Source of the DNA: Candidatus Latescibacterota bacterium
GTDB taxonomy: Bacteria; JAAXHH01; JABIQT01
DNA: 11,487 nt
NCBI GenBank assembly: GCA_018667995.1
Contig: JABIQT010000554.1
Span: 1 to 11,487 of the forward strand
Direction: 5' to 3'
In this document: one piece after another, positions 3,014-11,487 of the stretch
How positions within the stretch are numbered: position 1 is the first letter of the stretch
How the letters are laid out: every line of letters begins with the position of its first letter
Program-made: the position numbers and the translations under genes
Notes under the pieces: generated by a model
The model's input: the letters and a program-made list of their open reading frames with translations, nothing else
Told to the model about the DNA's origin: nothing
Databases searched by the model: none

Positions 3014-3697
3014 ATGTCGACAGTAGCCATACTTCAGAAGAATTTACATTGGATCGACGAACTGACGGTTGGGCTATCCCGTCTTCGTATTGACGTGACC
3101 CACGTCCGGGACGGCTTAGAGCTTCGGACCTCCGGTGCCGATATCGGACTTGCTGAGGCGAGTCTCTTCCATCATGAGTATTCAGGCGATGAGTGTCGAC
3201 CGCCGCTCATACTCGTCGCCGAAGAGGGGGACTACGAAGCCGCATTGCTGGCATTGAAACTGAGGGTCACGGACTTCTGGACAACGACGATCCCGATCCC
3301 AACGGCCATTGAGCGAATTGATACTCTCCTGCTTCAGACTCTTCCATCTCCGCACTACCTAGCTCGCCGCATCGACAGATACCTCAGCCAGAATCATTCC
3401 ACAACCTCAATTGACTCGACCTCAGTTGCAAGGGAATTCGGAATTTCACCCGGATATGTGTCCCGACTGATGAACTTGGCGCCTTGGAAGGGCTTCGGTA
3501 AGAGGCTGCTGCACCATAGAATCAGACATGCTGAGCATCTGTTGACCCACACTGACGAGCCGCTATACCTCGTGTCGGAAGAATGCGGTTTCAAGTCCCC
3601 GGCAAGGTTCAGTGAGGCGTTCTCGAGAGCTGTTGGCGTTCCACCTAAGAGGTTTCGCTCTGGCGCAAGATCAATTGCACCACGACGAGGCAAATAG
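3014..3697 (+). CDS. AraC-family regulator with degenerate receiver-like N-terminus
   Basis: The 227-residue product ends in an AraC/XylS-type double HTH (about residues 115-220). Visible marks are VAREFGISPGYVSRLMN for the first HTH, RIRHAEHLLTHTDEPLYLVS for the linker, and CGFKSPARFSEAFSRAVGVP followed by KRFR for the second. The first 105 or so residues alternate strand- and helix-like stretches as in a response-regulator receiver, with RPPLILVAEEGDYEAALLAL resembling beta4-alpha4. The N-terminal acidic pair, the phosphorylatable Asp and the Lys expected before the last helix cannot be found, so it is probably a pseudo-receiver not controlled by phosphorylation; this is inference. The start at 3014 has AAAGGTG in front; an ATG at 2912 is in frame but less likely. 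The stop codon is two bases from the GTG of the next activator gene, so the two form an operon. Arg is often AGA/AGG (10 of 22), unlike the downstream biosynthetic genes. Confidence 0.88.
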   Translation: MSTVAILQKNLHWIDELTVGLSRLRIDVTHVRDGLELRTSGADIGLAEASLFHHEYSGDECRPPLILVAEEGDYEAALLALKLRVTDFWTTTIPIPTAIERIDTLLLQTLPSPHYLARRIDRYLSQNHSTTSIDSTSVAREFGISPGYVSRLMNLAPWKGFGKRLLHHRIRHAEHLLTHTDEPLYLVSEECGFKSPARFSEAFSRAVGVPPKRFRSGARSIAPRRGK

Positions 3698-3700
3698 GAG
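3687..3700 (+). promoter_or_regulatory. Two overlapping ribosome-binding possibilities for the second activator
   Basis: GAGG at 3687-3690 lies nine bases before the GTG at 3700. AGGAG at 3696-3700 lies eight bases before an in-frame TTG at 3709. The stronger Shine-Dalgarno therefore points to the TTG, which would shorten the protein by three residues. Either choice keeps translation coupled to the AraC-type gene. Confidence 0.4.
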
Positions 3701-6700
3701 TGGATTCGTTGCTTGATTCGGTATGGCCCCGCCAAGGGATCTGGCAATCATTCGGCCTGGCTCACGGCCTTCCCGACATGAAGGTGGAGGGGCTTTGCAT
3801 CGACTCAAGAGGCGTTGTCTGGGCAGGGACTCATGACAAGGGGGTCGCCTTCTATGATGGGTCGAGTTTCGCCTGTCTCTCTCGGCAGGAAGGTCTCCCG
3901 GGGCACGGTGTCTATGCTATTCGCTCACTAGGGAACGGCACCGTCTTACTTGCTACAGATGACGGGATTGCCAGATATGCCAACGGCGGATTGGAGTGCT
4001 TGGATGGTGATCATGGTCCAGTACTGTGGGGTTGTGCGACCCATGGTGACAGGATCTATTTCGGCCTTGATCGCCTATCGGGGGAGCCTCCGCGAATCGC
4101 AATCTGTGATGAAAATAGTGTAAATGTTGTAGAACTTGACGATCAGCCTGACGCTCGCGGAATGAGTGTTACGGCGATGACGCTGGCAGGGGATGGCAAC
4201 ATCTGGTGTGGAGGGACTCATCTCTACTCATATGACGGAAAGGAATTCGATAGGAAGGATACTCCAGGGGACCTAGGGCAGATCAGGGTCCTCTGTGCTC
4301 GGGAGACCTCGTCCGAAATATGGGGAGCGGCAGATTCAGGTCTTTTCCGCATCAGAGATGGTGAGTTCGAACCACTACAGGGGCCAGAGACAATCCAGGG
4401 CATGGTCGAAAGTAATGCGGGCGATCTTTGGGCGACGGGCCATGACGGGAACCTGTATCGCGCACGAGGTTCGAGTCTGGTTACCGAGTCCAACATCGGC
4501 GTGCCATTGTGGCGTGGGGTTGTTGTCGATCCCGAAGGAAGGATTTGGGTGGGCTCGTACGGCTACGGTCTTTTCTGTTACGATCCAACTAGGATGATGA
4601 TTCCAGTGACAGCGAGAGGAGGCGCAGGTATAGCCTCAGCGGCTGCGGTTGGCAGCGACGGTGACCTCTGGATCGGCTCAGGATCTGAGCTAATCCGTTC
4701 TCAAAACGATCTTGCTCCGGAGGTTCTGACGTGGCCGGCAGAGATCAGTTCACACGCAATCACCGCGTTGCTAGTCGACTCCGATGGCACGCTCTGGATT
4801 GGCAAGAGGAACGGAACAGTTTTTAGAATCGAGCGCAGCGATATCACGCAGTGTCAGACTCACGACAGTATTGAGGGGTACGGAATACGTGATCTTGCGC
4901 AAGACAATCTGGGGAATGTCTGGTTTTGCTTGGGTTACTCTGATGGTTTCGGGTACTTCGACCGGTCGGGGACGATCTCTATGGTCTCGGTGCCTGGAGG
5001 ACCCTCAAGAGTTGCTTGCGTGGCGCCGTCGAGTACCGGATCTATTTATCTCGGAGTACAGCGATTCGGCGAGTGGGATGGGGTGTGGGAATATGTCGAC
5101 GGTGAGGTTCATCGTGTTGCTGGAACGCAGGGCGTGTCAGCAAACGCTATGCTCGAGGATGAGCAAGGGATACTCTGGGTCGGAACGTCAGAGGGTGTCC
5201 TCAGGTTGGACAACGAATTTGCGGTTACTTACAACATGTCTGACGGTCTACCTTCTGACCTCGTCACGTGCCTTTTCGAGGATTCAAGAGGTGTTCTCTG
5301 GATAGGGACTGAGGGGGGCGGCGCTGCATGCTACGACGGAGGGGTTTTTCAGACGGTCCGAGTTCCCTCCAATCCGGCACTAAACTCAGTCGTTTCAGTT
5401 TCGCAGGCGGTCGATGACGAAATCTGGTTCGCAACAAACGGCGGCGTCGTTCGATATCGGCAAAAAAGGGTTCTCCCTACTGTCGAGATGCTACAGGTGT
5501 CAGCCGACCGTGATCACCTACCTCGGGACGGGCTTCAGCTTCCTGACACCGCAGGGCGTGTTTCCATTTCGTTTAGGGGACTCTCTCGCTCGGTTGTTTC
5601 TTCGGATCTCGTATATCGGCATCGGCTAGTCGGGCTTTCTGACGAATGGACACAGACTCGCGAACTCGAGGCCGAATTCGTGAAGCTGAGGCCGCGAAAT
5701 TACCGATTCGAACTTCAAGCAGTCGATCCCGACCTAAACTACTCAGAAGTTCTTGCGATCGACTTCGACGTCACAGAGGATCCTAGAATTGGAGCTCTTA
5801 CGGCGGCGCTGAGTGACGCTCGTCACGGAGAATTTATTGGCGAGAGTGAGGCCCTAGAGGAAGTTAGGCGTCAGGTTCGAGAGGTGGGTTGGACCGACCT
5901 TACCGTTCTGATATTGGGGGAGACCGGGACAGGCAAAGGCCTCGCAGCTAGATTGGTTCACGAGCTTAGTGAGAGGCGCAACGGTCCTTTCATTCACGTG
6001 AATTGTGGAGCGTTGCCCTCGGGTCTGGTTGACAGCGAATTGTTTGGACACGACAAGGGGGCCTTCACTGGCGCGATTTCCAAGAAGCTAGGAAAGTTCG
6101 AACTCGCGGAAGGTGGATCGATCTTTTTGGACGAGATCGGCGATCTGCCTGAAGAGTCGCAGACAAGACTGTTACGAGTGCTTCAAGATCGTTGCATAGA
6201 GCGTGTAGGTGGGGCCACGACAATCCCGATTGATGTGCGCGTCATCGCAGCCACCAATCGCGATCTGACGGAGGCTGTCCGAAAAGCGGAGTACCGAGCC
6301 GATCTCTTCTACAGGCTCAACGTGTTTCCCATTACGATTCCACCGCTCAGAGCACGAGTTGAAGACATTTCGCAACTCTCGAACCACTTTGCTGATACCT
6401 TTTCTGATCACCTGAATGTGCCCATGCCGATCATGTCTGAAAGCGCTCAAAGGGCACTAATGGAATACGGGTGGCCAGGCAACGTACGTGAGCTTGAACA
6501 CACGATTCAGAGGGCTGTGTTGCTGGCGAGGGGGGGGGTGATTGGAAGGGAGCATCTGGGAATGGTTTCTTCCGACGAGGCACCCCAGGGTGATCAAGGA
6601 ATGATTATTCCCTTGTCAGCTTACGAGAAGCAATATATCGAGCGGGTTCTTCGGATCACCGATGGCGTGATTCATGGCGCGAAAGGGGCTGCTAAGCTTC

Positions 6701-6768
6701 TTGGAATGAAACCGACTACTCTCAGAAGCCGCATCGAAAAGCTAGGAGTGAAGCGACCCTTGAGATAA
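3700..6768 (+). CDS. Propeller (Reg_prop)/Y_Y_Y sigma-54 activator, complete
   Basis: This 1022-residue paralogue of the gene at 2-2767 shows the whole architecture. Residues about 12-600 hold roughly a dozen Reg_prop blades (VVWAGT, RIWVGS, DLWIGS, TLWIGK, ILWVGT, VLWIGT), enough for two seven-bladed propellers, with the family opening 'W.SFG..HGLPD'. A Y_Y_Y domain spans about 620-693. The sigma-54 AAA+ domain (about 705-950) has Walker A GETGTGKG (740-747), GAFTGA (787-792), FLDEIGD Walker B, AATNRD, RADLFYRLN and WPGNVREL. A Fis/FhlA-type HTH (LGMKPTTLRSRIEKLGV) closes it. There is no signal peptide or membrane helix, so the sensor should be cytoplasmic. In histidine kinases such as Bacteroides hybrid sensors, the same Reg_prop/Y_Y_Y modules are periplasmic and bind glycans. 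Start: GTG 3700, or TTG 3709 with a better RBS. It probably activates the sigma-54 promoter at 6993. A run of nine G (6530-6538) precedes the HTH coding part. Confidence 0.96.
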   Translation: MDSLLDSVWPRQGIWQSFGLAHGLPDMKVEGLCIDSRGVVWAGTHDKGVAFYDGSSFACLSRQEGLPGHGVYAIRSLGNGTVLLATDDGIARYANGGLECLDGDHGPVLWGCATHGDRIYFGLDRLSGEPPRIAICDENSVNVVELDDQPDARGMSVTAMTLAGDGNIWCGGTHLYSYDGKEFDRKDTPGDLGQIRVLCARETSSEIWGAADSGLFRIRDGEFEPLQGPETIQGMVESNAGDLWATGHDGNLYRARGSSLVTESNIGVPLWRGVVVDPEGRIWVGSYGYGLFCYDPTRMMIPVTARGGAGIASAAAVGSDGDLWIGSGSELIRSQNDLAPEVLTWPAEISSHAITALLVDSDGTLWIGKRNGTVFRIERSDITQCQTHDSIEGYGIRDLAQDNLGNVWFCLGYSDGFGYFDRSGTISMVSVPGGPSRVACVAPSSTGSIYLGVQRFGEWDGVWEYVDGEVHRVAGTQGVSANAMLEDEQGILWVGTSEGVLRLDNEFAVTYNMSDGLPSDLVTCLFEDSRGVLWIGTEGGGAACYDGGVFQTVRVPSNPALNSVVSVSQAVDDEIWFATNGGVVRYRQKRVLPTVEMLQVSADRDHLPRDGLQLPDTAGRVSISFRGLSRSVVSSDLVYRHRLVGLSDEWTQTRELEAEFVKLRPRNYRFELQAVDPDLNYSEVLAIDFDVTEDPRIGALTAALSDARHGEFIGESEALEEVRRQVREVGWTDLTVLILGETGTGKGLAARLVHELSERRNGPFIHVNCGALPSGLVDSELFGHDKGAFTGAISKKLGKFELAEGGSIFLDEIGDLPEESQTRLLRVLQDRCIERVGGATTIPIDVRVIAATNRDLTEAVRKAEYRADLFYRLNVFPITIPPLRARVEDISQLSNHFADTFSDHLNVPMPIMSESAQRALMEYGWPGNVRELEHTIQRAVLLARGGVIGREHLGMVSSDEAPQGDQGMIIPLSAYEKQYIERVLRITDGVIHGAKGAAKLLGMKPTTLRSRIEKLGVKRPLR
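6530..6538. repeat. G9 homopolymer inside the activator gene
   Basis: Nine consecutive G encode part of LARGGVIG between the AAA+ core and the HTH. The paralogue has six G at the matching place (2546-2551). Slippage by one base would remove the DNA-binding domain while leaving the ATPase. The frame is intact as given. Confidence 0.6.
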
Positions 6769-6769
6769 A

Positions 6770-6809
6770 GCGAAATATCGTAACTGTGACAAACGCGACG
6801 ATATTTCGT
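6770..6809. promoter_or_regulatory. Inverted pair of 12-bp dyads, probable activator binding sites
   Basis: GCGAAATATCGT (6770-6781) and ACGATATTTCGT (6798-6809) are inverted copies with 11 Watson-Crick pairs plus a G:T and a 16-bp spacer. Like the pair at 2769-2810, they start one base after the stop codon of a sigma-54 activator gene. Centres are 28 bp apart, against 30 bp there. They lie about 185-225 bp upstream of the sigma-54 promoter, a typical enhancer position. Use as an RNA hairpin terminator is less likely because no immediate U tract follows. Confidence 0.65.
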
Positions 6810-6879
6810 AGAAGCAACCTAAGGCCTTGTTTTATTACTCTCTTGCCGAGTTTTCGATTCTTGGAAAGTCTTAGTTGTC

Positions 6880-6891
6880 ACGTTATTTCGT
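6880..6891. promoter_or_regulatory. Dyad copy, half-site ATTTCGTA
   Basis: ACGTTATTTCGT differs by one base from ACGATATTTCGT at 6798-6809. The 10-mer TCGTAACTGT across its end (6888-6897) is also found at 6778-6787 across the first dyad of this region. It is about 100 bp upstream of the sigma-54 promoter. Confidence 0.55.
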
Positions 6892-6924
6892 AACTGTCAA
6901 ACGTCGAATGAGCATCAACAGTAT

Positions 6925-6992: not shown

Positions 6993-7008
6993 TGGCACAC
7001 TCTGTGCT
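6993..7008 (+). promoter_or_regulatory. Sigma-54 promoter of the peptide-glycosyltransferase operon
   Basis: TGGCACACTCTGTGCT fits the consensus TGGCACGNNNNTTGCW at all but two positions (A for G at 7, G for T at 12). GG (-24) and GC (-12) are correctly spaced. Transcription would start near 7018-7020, leaving a leader of about 45 nt before the small secreted-protein gene. Two sigma-54 activator genes and four dyad repeats lie directly upstream, which strongly supports the call. Confidence 0.8.
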
Positions 7009-7024
7009 CTCTTTGTTCCCGTCG

Positions 7025-7047
7025 ACACGGCTGATACCCAGCCGTGT
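7025..7047 (+). promoter_or_regulatory. 5' leader stem-loop
   Basis: ACACGGCT (7025-7032) and AGCCGTGT (7040-7047) form a perfect 8-bp stem with a 7-nt loop. It begins only a few bases after the predicted sigma-54 start site and ends six bases before AGGAG. A stem at the extreme 5' end usually stabilises an mRNA; control of ribosome access is the alternative. A run of five A follows on the sense strand rather than U, so it is not an intrinsic terminator. Confidence 0.6.
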
Positions 7048-7053
7048 AAAAAC

Positions 7054-7058
7054 AGGAG
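7054..7058 (+). promoter_or_regulatory. Ribosome binding site of the small secreted protein
   Basis: AGGAG lies three bases before the ATG at 7062 and nine before the ATG at 7068. The second spacing is closer to the usual range, so the true start may be 7068. Confidence 0.6.
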
Positions 7059-7061
7059 CAC

Positions 7062-7280
7062 ATGATCATGCAGGGTCAGAAGAACAAAGTGAGTAGGATT
7101 CTCGAGTGGTCCATCGGACTTGTTGCGTTCGTAGTCCTAGCCGCCACAGGGCGTGCGGAAGCCGCCCTCACTGATCAGCCAGTAGACGAGAGTTCAGTGG
7201 ATTTCGTTGGCGGGGCTATGGCATACCTAGATGTAGACGATGTTGTCAACGACGATGATCCGGCACCGAAATCTGAGTAA
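7062..7280 (+). CDS. Small acidic secreted protein (signal peptide + 38-residue mature part)
   Basis: The product is 72 residues, or 70 if translation starts at the ATG at 7068, which is better spaced from AGGAG. I recognise no family. Residues 1-34 look like a Sec signal peptide: basic n-region (K7, K9, R12), hydrophobic core at about 17-28 (SIGLVAFVVLAA) and an AEA cleavage motif at 32-34. The mature part would be 38 residues and very acidic (nine Asp, two Glu, one Lys), with clusters DVDD and NDDD and a C-terminal PAPKSE. It has no Cys, exactly one Gln and exactly one Lys. It is the first gene after the sigma-54 promoter, with a leader hairpin and a good RBS, which suggests strong production. 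The next gene encodes a transglutaminase-like domain, so the peptide could be a substrate, a secreted signal or a structural component; this is speculative. A short protein with coherent signal-peptide architecture and promoter context is likely real. Confidence 0.82.
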   Translation: MIMQGQKNKVSRILEWSIGLVAFVVLAATGRAEAALTDQPVDESSVDFVGGAMAYLDVDDVVNDDDPAPKSE

Positions 7281-7314
7281 GGCAGGTTCAAGGGATACGT
7301 AGCGCCTACTCCCC

Positions 7315-9834
7315 ATGGCGACACGTGACATTGCTCGAGCCCTGGCGGACGGTCTTCGAACTAAGGCTGCCTCCCTCAGGCTAGATCGGAACAGTTTGCC
7401 TGTTCTGATCTTCTTTCACGGGCAAGCTCTCGCTCATACGATTCGTCCTCTGGTTCTGGCGAGGGCACTCCGGAATCGTGGATATCCGGTTGTTCTGGCA
7501 GGACGTGGCCCGCACGTGGTTCGCGTTCGCCAGGAGGGTTTCGAGGTTCATGATGTCGAGACTCTGCCCCAATCTCGAATGGATCAGTATGTCGAGCGCG
7601 GTGACTATGGTTACTACGATGTAGACTGGATTGACCGTTGCGTGGCGGCAGAGCGCACGATTATCCAGATGGTGCGGCCCTCGCTGATTGTTCACGACAT
7701 GAAGCCAACAGCTCATATCAGTGCGCGTCTTGAGGGCGTCGACGACGCTCGCATTACGCAGGCCTACAACCATCCCGCCTATGCTCATCCTTTGCGTCTC
7801 CCCGCTGGATTTGATCCATCTGCGGGGCCTTTTGACGCGTATCTCGAGACTCACGCGCCGCGCACGCGACCGCAGAAGTCATTCTTCTTCCTTGCCGACG
7901 TGCCCCAGTTGCACGACGTCGAACGGCCTGCACCGGGCTATCACTTCATCGGCCCACTTCTCGATCAACCTGCTCGACCGTCACATGTAGACGTACTCGA
8001 CAACTGGTCTGACGAAGGGCCGCTTGTATATCTCACATGTGGGAGCAGTGGGCGAGATCCTGACTACCTCGCCGAGTTGGTGGAGGCAGTAAGAGATCGC
8101 CCCTATCGGTTGCTGGTTACGACGGCAAATCGATGGACACCGCGTCCTGATCGGCAGTTGCCAACGAATGTGCGAGTCGTGCCATTCCTTTCAGGTGAGT
8201 GGATTCTCCAGCACGCGTCTATGCTGGTTGGAATCGTCGGTGTGGGGGCCATCTACCAGGCCCTCTCTCAGGGCAAGCCTATCGTCGGTGCGCCAGAGCA
8301 TCTGGATCAGGAGTTCCATCTCAATCGTGTCAGAGATCTCGGACTCGGAATCAAGCTTGATCGAGCTGATTTCTGCACAGACTCGATTCTGCAGGCGATC
8401 GACCATGTGTTACTGCATGAATCTGAGTTCCATGAACGTTGTGCCCCATTTGCCGCAGGCCTCGCACCCTATGCGGCAGGAGTGGCGGCAGTCGACCTTG
8501 TAGATCAGCACTTCCTGCATCGGGACGACAAGTATCGATTCAACGCAGCCTTCGGTATTTCAGGTGAAGAATTTGTCCGGTATCTCGAGGCCACGACGCC
8601 AACGCAACTGTCGGGTGCCGTTATCCAGAAAATGCTTCTGCGGAATCTTCGACGTGGTCTGCCGCATCGTTGGGTCGGTGACTCGCTGGTCTTCGACCGC
8701 GTCGATTCGTGGAATTGGCTTTACGAGAATGAGCCCATCTTCTTTGAGGCTGACTATCGTGCGCTGGAATTGAAGAGACACGCTTTTCATCGCATGGATC
8801 GAGAAAAGGTGGTCTCACGCAACCGTTGGCAGCGATACCGTCTTAGATACCGACTGACGCTGGATCCACTCGGACCCGGAGGAAAGCCTGCCTTCAAGGC
8901 CGGTCAGCGGCTCAAGGTTTTTCTGCCGATCCCCGTCGATCGTCCCGGACATCAGCGTGGTGTCAACATTCTGCAGACGACACCAAGTGCATTGACTGAG
9001 CAAGTGGCTCACGGTTTGGGTTTCATCTACGGCGCCATCGTAACAATTGAGGATCCCTCGCTTCCACTGACGATTGGCTACGATGCCGAAGTCAATGTCC
9101 GTGCCATCGGCGATGAACAAGCTGTCCGCAGGGACGAGCTCTCCGGACGCGAAAGGACACATCGACTACAGGTGGATGAGTCGATCCTACATCTGCCTGA
9201 GGTCTTGAAGTTTCGCGCCGAACTCGATCGCGCCCCTGATGATTCCGACGAAGCTACGGCACGGGCCATCTATAGAGCCCTGGCCACTACCCGCCGCTTT
9301 GGCAAGACCCACGATCGCACTCAGAGTCCCAAGTACTGCACGAGCCTTGTTCTGCGATCGGAGCGAGGCCACTGCACAACACTGGCTCGCACATTTGCCA
9401 CCCTCTGCCGAGCAGAAGGAATCCCGACACGCGAAGTGCACGGGGCTCTGATCGGTTACCCCCTCGACGAAAAGACCTATCTGCACGCGAGCCGAAATGA
9501 ACCGCTCTTCGGTCACACATGGGTGGAGATCTTCCTGTCTGAGAAGGGCTGGGTACCCGTGGAGTTTCACGGAATTGTCATCGGCCAACAGGCGATGACT
9601 GGTCGCAACGTGCGAGATCGACGACTGCGTCGGCAGATCGAGGCCAACACCGAACCCTACCTCGACTACTACTTCGGCCATCTCGATCATCAACGAATTC
9701 TCTGCTCGCCCTCCGTAAAACGTATGCACACGCTCTTGCTTGAACATCCGGAAGAGCGGGAGACCATGCGTGGCCCATGGCGTTCTGCACCTGAACTGCG
9801 CTACGATAATTCACTCAGGGTAGACTGCCTGTGA
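7315..9834 (+). CDS. GT-B glycosyltransferase fused to transglutaminase-like protease domain
   Basis: The 839-residue protein has two enzymatic halves. Residues about 28-395 resemble GT1/GT28 glycosyltransferases: an N-terminal strand-loop with His41 in LAHTIRP, then the C-terminal donor half with LVYLTCGSSG (238-246), VPFLSGEWILQHASMLVGIV and ALSQGKPIVGAPEHLDQEFH (316-335). The usual HGG donor motif is replaced by GIVGVG, so donor use may be unusual. Residues about 400-505 form an unassigned linker. Residues about 505-600 look like the beta region that precedes transglutaminase cores (LKVFLPIP). The core has Cys687 in ERGHCTTLARTFATLCRAEG, His734 in FGHTWVEIF and an acidic Glu750 in GWVPVE where Asp is common: a plausible catalytic triad. 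It has no signal peptide, so it should act in the cytoplasm. The ATG at 7315 lacks a good RBS, but a stop (TAG 7300) lies just upstream. Its stop overlaps the next start. Transglutaminase folds can be proteases or amidases, so the reaction is open. Confidence 0.92.
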   Translation: MATRDIARALADGLRTKAASLRLDRNSLPVLIFFHGQALAHTIRPLVLARALRNRGYPVVLAGRGPHVVRVRQEGFEVHDVETLPQSRMDQYVERGDYGYYDVDWIDRCVAAERTIIQMVRPSLIVHDMKPTAHISARLEGVDDARITQAYNHPAYAHPLRLPAGFDPSAGPFDAYLETHAPRTRPQKSFFFLADVPQLHDVERPAPGYHFIGPLLDQPARPSHVDVLDNWSDEGPLVYLTCGSSGRDPDYLAELVEAVRDRPYRLLVTTANRWTPRPDRQLPTNVRVVPFLSGEWILQHASMLVGIVGVGAIYQALSQGKPIVGAPEHLDQEFHLNRVRDLGLGIKLDRADFCTDSILQAIDHVLLHESEFHERCAPFAAGLAPYAAGVAAVDLVDQHFLHRDDKYRFNAAFGISGEEFVRYLEATTPTQLSGAVIQKMLLRNLRRGLPHRWVGDSLVFDRVDSWNWLYENEPIFFEADYRALELKRHAFHRMDREKVVSRNRWQRYRLRYRLTLDPLGPGGKPAFKAGQRLKVFLPIPVDRPGHQRGVNILQTTPSALTEQVAHGLGFIYGAIVTIEDPSLPLTIGYDAEVNVRAIGDEQAVRRDELSGRERTHRLQVDESILHLPEVLKFRAELDRAPDDSDEATARAIYRALATTRRFGKTHDRTQSPKYCTSLVLRSERGHCTTLARTFATLCRAEGIPTREVHGALIGYPLDEKTYLHASRNEPLFGHTWVEIFLSEKGWVPVEFHGIVIGQQAMTGRNVRDRRLRRQIEANTEPYLDYYFGHLDHQRILCSPSVKRMHTLLLEHPEERETMRGPWRSAPELRYDNSLRVDCL

Positions 9835-10922
9835 GCGACCGCCTCGACATATCCGTCGTGATTCCCACCCGTAATCAGGCGCCGCGCTTGGCGCTGGTTC
9901 TGGCCGGACTTGATGTCCAGACCTTCGCTGCGGATCGCTTCGAGGTCATCGTGGTGGATGATGGTTGCCAGGACGAAACGGTAGAGATGCTGGGTCACCG
10001 CCGAAGTTCATTCAGTCTTCGACGCATCGGCGGGCGGCCCGTAGGACGCAATGCCGCACGAAACCTGGGTATCGAAGCCGCTCATGGCGTATTGACTGTC
10101 TTCCTGGATGCTGATGCTCTCCCCGAACCCGAACTGCTGGCCAAGTATTGGCAGGGTCACCTTGAGCATGGTGGTATGGCCATCCTCACGGGCATGCAAT
10201 ATCACTTGCCCGAATTGGAATTCCTGCACGATCCGCGTACCGGTGAGCTGCTGACACATATCGATGTGCCCAGTGTCGTCCGCGACCTGCATCAGACACG
10301 GCCTGCAGATTTTGGTCTCACAGAGCGAACGGTGCGCGAGGATTTCGATACAGTTCGACGTCGTGGTGTCGAAGGCAGTTATCCGAACCCTGGTACCATC
10401 GAGCGCCAGGCTCAGGCAAGACAGTTACTTGACCTGTGCCCCCGGAGCAGGACGGGCTGGCTGGCCTTTATCCCCCACAATGGCGCCATTACGACCTCCT
10501 TGCTGCGCTCTACCGGTGGCTTTGACGCTGAGATCCCCTTCAACGAAGGGTGGGAGCTGGCATACCGACTGCAGCGCCAGCAAGGGGCTTTTGTACAGAC
10601 GACTCACGCGTCGACGTACCACCTGTATCACTATCACGATTTTGAGAGCCATCAACAGATACGTGATCGCTATGACGCGATCGAGCACATGGTCGCCAGA
10701 CATGCCGACCCGCGTATCCGCATGGTCTACTTCTGGTATGCGCAGCTGTGGCCTGACCCCTACATCCCCGAGGAGGCAGTGATTCCCGATCTGCTCGAAT
10801 TCGATCGACTCTACGCCGACCTCTCCGACGTGTTGTGGCGCGAGTATGAACTCGTCCTTGCCCACCATCCCAAAGAACTTCCCCTGATCCCAGTTGAGGT
10901 GACCTATGATAGCTGTGCTTGA
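9831..10922 (+). CDS. GT2-family glycosyltransferase
   Basis: The 363-residue protein starts like a GT-A, family 2 enzyme: ISVVIPTRNQ (7-16), EVIVVDDGCQDET (38-50), GRNAARNLGIEAAHG (72-86) and the metal-binding DxD motif in VFLDADALPEPELL (Asp93/Asp95). A galactosyltransferase-like second half has GGFDAEIPFNEGWELAYRLQ (229-248), where the acceptor-side acidic motif normally lies. Residues about 265-345 are a less typical extension rich in His, Trp and Tyr. There is no membrane segment, so it should transfer sugars in the cytosol from a nucleotide-sugar donor; donor and acceptor cannot be told. The GTG at 9831 overlaps the preceding stop by four bases (GTGA), which implies translational coupling. 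An AGGG at 9817-9820 may help. Only 3 of 33 Arg codons are AGA/AGG, far fewer than in the regulatory genes upstream. Confidence 0.93.
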   Translation: MSDRLDISVVIPTRNQAPRLALVLAGLDVQTFAADRFEVIVVDDGCQDETVEMLGHRRSSFSLRRIGGRPVGRNAARNLGIEAAHGVLTVFLDADALPEPELLAKYWQGHLEHGGMAILTGMQYHLPELEFLHDPRTGELLTHIDVPSVVRDLHQTRPADFGLTERTVREDFDTVRRRGVEGSYPNPGTIERQAQARQLLDLCPRSRTGWLAFIPHNGAITTSLLRSTGGFDAEIPFNEGWELAYRLQRQQGAFVQTTHASTYHLYHYHDFESHQQIRDRYDAIEHMVARHADPRIRMVYFWYAQLWPDPYIPEEAVIPDLLEFDRLYADLSDVLWREYELVLAHHPKELPLIPVEVTYDSCA

Positions 10923-11487
10923 TCCAAAAAAAGAGGCTCTATTGGTGCAGGCGTTGCGCCAACATGAAGATGCTGGCGATCGGAAGGCCATGGCCCTCGA
11001 CTGCTATCAGCTCGGCGCATTCTATCAGGCTCAAGGCCAGATCGACATGGCCATCCATTGTATCCGCCGTGCCCTGGTGTTGTGTGAAGCCCTGCGAGAT
11101 GTGCAAGGCGTGGCGATGGCCTATTGCCGCCTCGGTCTGCTGCATGAGATTCTTGGTGATTTCGGTCAGGCAGAATTTCTCTTGCAGGAAGCACGCCGGC
11201 GACACGATCAGATCCACGATCTGCGCGGACTGGCAGATGATCTTGGATACATCGGTTTCGTGCACTTTCAGCAAGGCGACCACGTAGCCGCTGAGTCGCA
11301 CTATCGTGAGGCCCTGACTCTGCATCAGCAGCTGAGAAACAATGGTAAGCAGGCCGAGGATTGGGGAAATCTCGGCAATCTGTTCTCCGCTCAAGGAGAC
11401 GGGGTGCAGGCGCGAGATGCTCACCACCAGGCCCTGGAACTCTACGAGCTGGCAGGTGACAAACAGGGAATGGGAAATCAGTATCGC
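10906..11487 (+). CDS. TPR-repeat protein, 3' end outside window
   Basis: The frame begins with the ATG at 10906, preceded by GAGGTG at 10896-10901, and stays open to the window end (194 codons). It overlaps the end of the GT2 gene by 17 bases in another frame, so it is probably translated by coupling. After about 25 residues, the sequence is four tetratricopeptide units of roughly 40 residues, with a fifth beginning. Each carries the TPR pattern: YQLGAFYQAQGQIDMAIHC, CRLGLLHEILGDFGQAEFLL, GYIGFVHFQQGDHVAAESHY and GNLGNLFSAQGDGVQARDAH. The 40-residue period is typical of TPR_12-type helical scaffolds that bind peptides or partner proteins. There is no signal peptide at the N-terminus. In this operon it may hold the glycosyltransferases together or bind the secreted protein before export; that is inference. 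A C-terminal effector domain may follow beyond the window. Confidence 0.9.
   Translation, partial: MIAVLDPKKEALLVQALRQHEDAGDRKAMALDCYQLGAFYQAQGQIDMAIHCIRRALVLCEALRDVQGVAMAYCRLGLLHEILGDFGQAEFLLQEARRRHDQIHDLRGLADDLGYIGFVHFQQGDHVAAESHYREALTLHQQLRNNGKQAEDWGNLGNLFSAQGDGVQARDAHHQALELYELAGDKQGMGNQYR

Follow-up and report, generated by a model that had tools for sequence, protein, structure and literature searches.

The stretch of DNA studied here, contig JABIQT010000554.1 at its full length of 11,487 nucleotides (the window), appears to carry a cassette similar to those for ribosomally synthesized and post-translationally modified peptides (RiPPs), in which the production of a modified and exported small peptide would be switched by sigma-54. 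We put the probability of this reading at about 50%. Every gene of the window is on the + strand and the order is ACT1, an AraC-type regulator, ACT2, the peptide, GTTG, GT2, and TPR, where ACT1 and ACT2 are propeller-type sigma-54 activators and GTTG is the name used for a GT-B glycosyltransferase fused to a transglutaminase-like domain. The gene for the 72-amino-acid peptide precursor (7062 to 7280) is followed by GTTG (7315 to 9834), by the GT2 glycosyltransferase with its conserved DAD (9831 to 10922), which overlaps GTTG by 4 nt, and by the TPR protein (10906 to 11487, the 3' end being cut by the contig end), which overlaps GT2 by 17 nt. ACT1 (2 to 2767, its 5' end lying past the contig), the AraC-type regulator (3014 to 3697), and ACT2 (3700 to 6768) are immediately upstream, and Pfam confirmed all three. 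These results uphold a preliminary description of the window, in which the peptide, the fusion, GT2, and TPR were placed in one direction under one sigma-54 promoter, the last three with overlapping frames, behind two activators and an AraC-type regulator. The window is the entire contig C603 of the metagenome-assembled genome (MAG) G000, which is 6.06 Mb, 85% complete, and has 4% contamination. The operon runs past the window because in L005, a contig of another MAG (titled Gemmatimonadetes bacterium SI074_bin69) that is 99.94% identical to the window, the TPR gene is whole and codes for 409 amino acids, and a soluble HisKA/HATPase histidine kinase follows it after 40 nt, the next gene being on the other strand. 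A terminator splitting the run, which the preliminary description had named among the findings that would speak against it, was not found: there is no terminator-like site in the gap between the peptide and GTTG, and over the whole window such sites were no commoner than expected by chance. The gene set is as it had been described, but the window shows less than the whole system, which also includes the histidine kinase and a 7.2 kb regulator and peptide segment that exists in two very different versions in this MAG.

Control of the cassette by sigma-54 is well supported by sequence features, namely a -24/-12 promoter, enhancer sites, activators with the GAFTGA motif in their AAA+ domain, and an rpoN fragment in the genome. 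The predicted promoter, TGGCACACTCTGTGCT (6993 to 7008, + strand), lies 69 nt upstream of the peptide start, and among 500 shuffles made of the 300-bp region upstream one reached its score. Upstream of it are three TACGATATWTCGTA-like activator sites (6769 to 6892) that start at 6769, 6797, and 6879, which gives a spacing of 28 and 82. With two mismatches or fewer this palindrome has three copies upstream of the peptide gene, both in the window and in L020, L058, L059, L060, and L063, the spacing at each of these six loci is 28-29 and 78-82 bp, and the triple arrangement was not seen in any of the shuffled copies of four of the six loci. The palindrome is enriched in the window, and sigma-54 sites also recur before the peptides of the window-like loci. 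When a genome-wide regulon of the activator site was looked for, 6 one-mismatch matches were found outside the two module contigs compared to 4 for the reversed control, and this candidate was rejected. Both activators are made up of a Reg_prop propeller, a weak Y_Y_Y domain, the AAA+ domain, and a Fis-type helix-turn-helix (Pfam), and both are soluble by hydropathy, ACT1 having no transmembrane-like segment.

The regulators and the peptide are found in a second version on C132 (L020), a contig of the same MAG. C132 matches the window at 1 to 202 (99.5% DNA identity by blastn), beyond which divergence starts, and again at 7366 to 7628 (99.2%), so that the variable module ends at codon 18 of GTTG, and the two contigs share their starting point to the base. 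In the 7.2 kb between these flanks the gene order is equal and the proteins are 24-43% identical, being 36% for ACT1, 40% for the C-terminal part of the AraC-type regulator, 43% for ACT2, and about 24% for the peptide. The left flank is held by only two contigs of G000, which are C603 and C132. These comparisons point to the exchange of a matched regulator and peptide module upstream of shared enzymes, and the simplest reading is that of two alleles in coexisting strains, with the swapped segment reaching from the start region of ACT1 to codon 18 of GTTG. Against this, the two versions could be two copies within one genome instead of strain alleles. It is possible, though we consider it doubtful, that no alleles were exchanged and that the divergence of C603 and C132 is an old paralogy in one genome or comes from a second, very close species that was binned with the first; the 4% contamination of the MAG agrees with this and so does the fact that the contigs stop within the shared flanks or right at their edge. 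However, both flanks are more than 99% identical, C603 and C132 have the same starting base and agree in gene order and site spacing, and G016 has the window version and lacks that of C132, all of which argue against this alternative.

The co-occurrence of the enzymes was examined in 64 genomes of the phylum to which the L007 genome belongs, with a threshold of E<=1e-30 for the GT2 subfamily. GTTG was found in 12 of the 64 genomes and the GT2 subfamily in exactly those 12 and no others; the chance of two identical sets, if they were independent, is about 3e-13, a value that the kinship of the genomes weakens. GT2 directly adjoins GTTG in 21/21 loci compared. Most of these loci also have TPR next to the pair, and those of the window type usually have a histidine kinase as well. 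Thus the gene-neighbourhood check proposed in the preliminary description came out in its favour, including for the small peptide, which recurs before GTTG at independent window-like loci. In the phylum assigned to the window genome itself (16 genomes) GTTG is present in that genome alone and the gene set is therefore patchy. A tblastn search of plasmids gave no record that covered 80% of GTTG, and in the ten best of 27 records only its GT-B half was matched, at 25-32% identity.

The N-terminal part of GTTG (about residues 29-400) is a GT-B domain like MGT/EryCIII and is closest to macrolide and small-molecule glycosyltransferases, and the transglutaminase-like domain (Transglut_core, E 6e-15) spans about residues 642-760. 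The Cys-His-acidic catalytic residues of the transglutaminase-like superfamily are present as Cys687, His734, and Glu750, with Glu replacing the usual Asp, and they are invariant in 21/21 aligned sequences. In the C-terminal domain of the GT-B part HLDQE is retained in most copies and the usual HxG is missing. The motifs taken as usual at the donor site are those of the GT1 family. In the GTTG of L069, L070, and L071 (clade B2) an NFTQE-like sequence is found in place of HLDQE, and members of this clade may take a different donor or have no glycosyltransferase activity. The N-terminal part of GT2 is related to chondroitin polymerase and to peptide GalNAc-transferases. No transmembrane-like segment was found in GTTG or GT2, and therefore both should work in the cytoplasm, ahead of export. 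In L057 (1606-4860) GTTG and GT2 form a single fused frame, possibly by a deletion or an assembly indel. An AlphaFold model of GTTG made from 3 sequences had a predicted local distance difference test score (pLDDT) of 43.5 and was not used, and a match of TPR to HaaT (NCBIfam) was rejected as a generic TPR match because it scored 93.9 bits against a cut-off of 1125.

The window peptide has a basic N-terminal end, a hydrophobic segment, an AEA site, and an acidic C-terminal part of 38 amino acids, and it has no Cys. Five other window-like loci (L020, L058, L059, L060, and L063) have a comparable export-type peptide of 72-82 amino acids directly upstream of GTTG, so that the peptide gene is at an equal position in six window-type loci, and in every one of them no other gene stands between it and the promoter. 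A profile of the window peptide gave no other clear match in the 64 genomes. Loci of this kind, called type A, are those of the window, C132, G063, G064, G071, and G073, with G075 and probably G017 added by enzyme clade, and they comprise one or more propeller activators, an AraC or receiver protein, the small acidic peptide, GTTG, GT2, TPR, and the kinase. The type A peptides are all without Cys and are divergent along their entire length, a clear likeness being seen only between those of G063 and G064 and a lesser one between those of G071 and G073. Type B1 loci have thioredoxin-like proteins, a peptide, and an FG-GAP protein directly upstream of GTTG, which had a tail of the type IX secretion system (T9SS) type in the copy scanned, and then GTTG, GT2, and often TPR. 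In type B2 TPR precedes GTTG, and peptides with the B2 leader were found in the G061 and G068 genomes. In type C there are peptides of 59-70 amino acids, ABC-2 permeases, and YGG-rich proteins. In the GTTG tree the B1, B2, and MKKR-type C copies are each separated with a support of 1.00, and the A copies are grouped with L061/L062 at 0.99, no support value being printed for A alone. Those GTTG clades that could be checked associate with differing types of peptide leader.

The B1 peptides (106-118 amino acids) have a leader MQSLTFVLEATLLAPLVEFATSTSGHVEPRQGLALGWLGSVVAGLAVVFG..AQA, with the pattern MQ(S/A)xTFxL...AQA, and a Cys-rich core, the B2 peptides have the leader (D/Q)xLREFFxSSSGLxPxRxGxxLGWV...AxA, also followed by a Cys-rich core, and the C peptides are Cys-rich and mostly have a leader of the MKKRI..LPQKAEA type. 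The mean amino acid identity in B1 is 86% for the leaders whereas it is 36% for the cores, and in B2 it is 77% and 24%, respectively. In one pair from G061 the 200 bp upstream are 100% identical and the leader DNA 99%, whereas the core DNA is 69% identical. The number of Cys is even in 16 of 18 peptides, counted over the whole peptide where no leader end was found. Strong sigma-54 sites, near-perfect in most, are located at -150 to -172 of the B2 and MKKR-type C peptides (L054, L067, L070, L104, L105, L108, L109b, L110, and L113), with related palindromes upstream of the L110 peptides, and none were found before the B1 peptides or the peptides of L061, L065, and L109a. As a separate observation, in L070, L104, L105, L108, L109, L110, and L113 leaders of the LREFFxSSSGL...AxA type are kept in front of hypervariable Cys-rich cores, and most of these peptides have near-consensus sigma-54 sites and adjoining FG-GAP genes. 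Near ABC-2 permeases and YGG-rich proteins in L054, L061, L065, and L067 there are Cys-containing peptides of 59-70 amino acids.

A mechanism that would account for these observations is as follows. ACT1 and ACT2 would bind the palindromic enhancer sites, and the peptide, GTTG, GT2, TPR, and the histidine kinase would be made as one transcript. In the cytoplasm GT-B and GT2 would build a glycan on the precursor, which TPR may present to them, and the transglutaminase-like domain with its Cys, His, and Glu would trim or cross-link it. The peptide would then exit by Sec, be cleaved after AxA, and act outside the cell as a strain-specific signal or as an antagonist or effector, while the propeller activators, the kinase, or both may sense the state of the pathway. 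The regulator and peptide module would pass as a block between strains with the enzyme genes unchanged. We favour glycosylation and trimming or cross-linking before Sec export because the enzymes look cytoplasmic, because TPR is paired with a glycosyltransferase in flagellin glycosylation by FlmG (PMC7591256), and because transglutaminase-like domains act as leader peptidases in lasso peptides (PMC10885120).

Several points weigh against the peptide-modifying cassette. That the window peptide is the substrate of the enzymes is something we infer, and a dedicated exporter or a leader peptidase is absent from the window-type operon. In its GT-B part GTTG has a partly changed donor-site motif, more strongly so in clade B2. 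The window-type peptide lacks Cys and its profile similarity to the Cys-rich leaders is weak (E 0.001 over 26 columns); a relationship between them is not established, and any connection to the B leaders is no more than suggestive. G068 has 16 matches to Cys-rich peptide profiles compared to 3 GTTG loci, one of which matches only as two pieces. Leader-like matches are also found in G078 and G062, which have no GTTG and contradict a one-to-one dependence of peptide and GTTG. Such genomes would fit the alternative that the enzymes make a glycan or a small glycoconjugate and that the peptide is a regulator or a membrane-anchored accessory rather than a substrate, and so would the closeness of the GT-B domain to small-molecule glycosyltransferases and the large secreted FG-GAP proteins or ABC-2 permeases that adjoin the enzymes in B and C loci. 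We regard this as unlikely, since no lipid-carrier, polymerase, flippase, or nucleotide-sugar genes were found in the operon, peptide leader type and enzyme clade track together, and the peptide comes first after the promoter in every window-type locus. Still more improbable is that the enzymes glycosylate secreted FG-GAP or sorting-tail proteins in the cytoplasm, with TPR serving, as it does in FlmG, as the receptor for the substrates and the window locus acting on proteins encoded elsewhere, because, although FG-GAP proteins are directly upstream of GTTG in B1 loci and a TPR and glycosyltransferase pairing is known from flagellin glycosylation (PMC7591256), window-type loci have no such protein and the transglutaminase domain is left unexplained.

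The proposed peptide cassette partly works like glycocins and comQXPA but belongs to neither, because the C39 transporter-peptidase of the one and ComQ, ComP, and ComA of the other are absent. As in the glycocins (sublancin, glycocin F, and thermoglycocin), a small precursor peptide is encoded beside a soluble glycosyltransferase in the window, and in the sister B and C loci the cores are Cys-rich with even Cys numbers, with thioredoxin-like proteins in B1. However, glycocins have a C39 transporter-peptidase (PMC12457901), and the glycocin clusters of that paper have no GT-B/transglutaminase fusion and no sigma-54 propeller activators, whereas the window operon has no double-glycine leader, no C39 peptidase-ABC transporter was found in the window or the L005 flank, ABC-2 permeases are confined to C loci, the leaders resemble Sec signal peptides, and the window peptide has no Cys in its core. 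The module in two versions is reminiscent of the comQXPA pherotype loci (PMC4008528), in that the genes for the peptide, the modifying enzyme, and the regulators are adjacent and the peptide and regulators are strongly divergent between versions. Unlike in those loci, there is no isoprenyltransferase ComQ and no ComP/ComA pair, all but the first 17 codons of the enzyme gene are in the conserved flank, and sigma-54 activators serve as the regulators. FlmG also joins a TPR module to a soluble glycosyltransferase that acts before export, but here these are separate polypeptides, with GT2 and the fusion, and no flagellin genes are nearby. Lasso peptide B2 proteases likewise have a transglutaminase-like domain encoded beside a small precursor peptide; here, however, it is fused to GT-B and is of PF01841 instead of the lasso family, and there is no asparagine-synthetase-like cyclase.

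Upstream of the AraC-type gene, palindromes resembling the activator sites (ACGAAATATCGT and degenerate copies) are found at 2768 to 2881, and a second -24/-12 site, TGGCACGCTTCATGAT (2961 to 2976, + strand), whose score was equalled by 13 of 500 shuffles, is 53 nt upstream of the preferred start of the AraC-type gene (HTH_18). This start, at 3014, was chosen from promoter position and sequence and is likelier than that at 2912 because the site falls between them. ACT2 has a run of nine G at about 6530-6538, a possible slippage tract, which has the same length in L005 (gapless alignment). In the 5'-untranslated region of the peptide gene a hairpin with a perfect 9-bp stem (7025 to 7047, + strand; fold z-score -5.85) is directly before the ribosome-binding site, which its outer stem covers. 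As a conserved element it was rejected, being strong in the window and L020, borderline in L058, and absent in L059, L060, and L063.

The preliminary description had not recognised the gene set as a described system, and that still holds. No model of Pfam, NCBIfam, PHROGs, or PADLOC matched the peptides scanned, PHROGs and PADLOC gave no informative match for GTTG, and the literature searched, which covered few subscription papers, did not describe the gene set; the novelty of the system is therefore provisional. What has been found is that a GT-B/transglutaminase fusion, present in no curated family library or literature searched, is linked in an uncultured marine bacterium and its relatives to one-component propeller/sigma-54 regulators and to several exported peptide families, whose leaders are conserved and whose cores are hypervariable. 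This points to modified peptides in related bacteria that act as signals or weapons and make up a family not yet described. A tentative extension is that these form a new class of ribosomal, glycosylated, transglutaminase-processed export peptides under dedicated propeller-type sigma-54 activators, with exchangeable peptides for strain recognition in a poorly known bacterial group. If the peptide is the substrate, the cassette would be a new class of peptide modification, and if the module swap is allelic, it would be a natural system for peptide-based strain recognition in uncultured bacteria.
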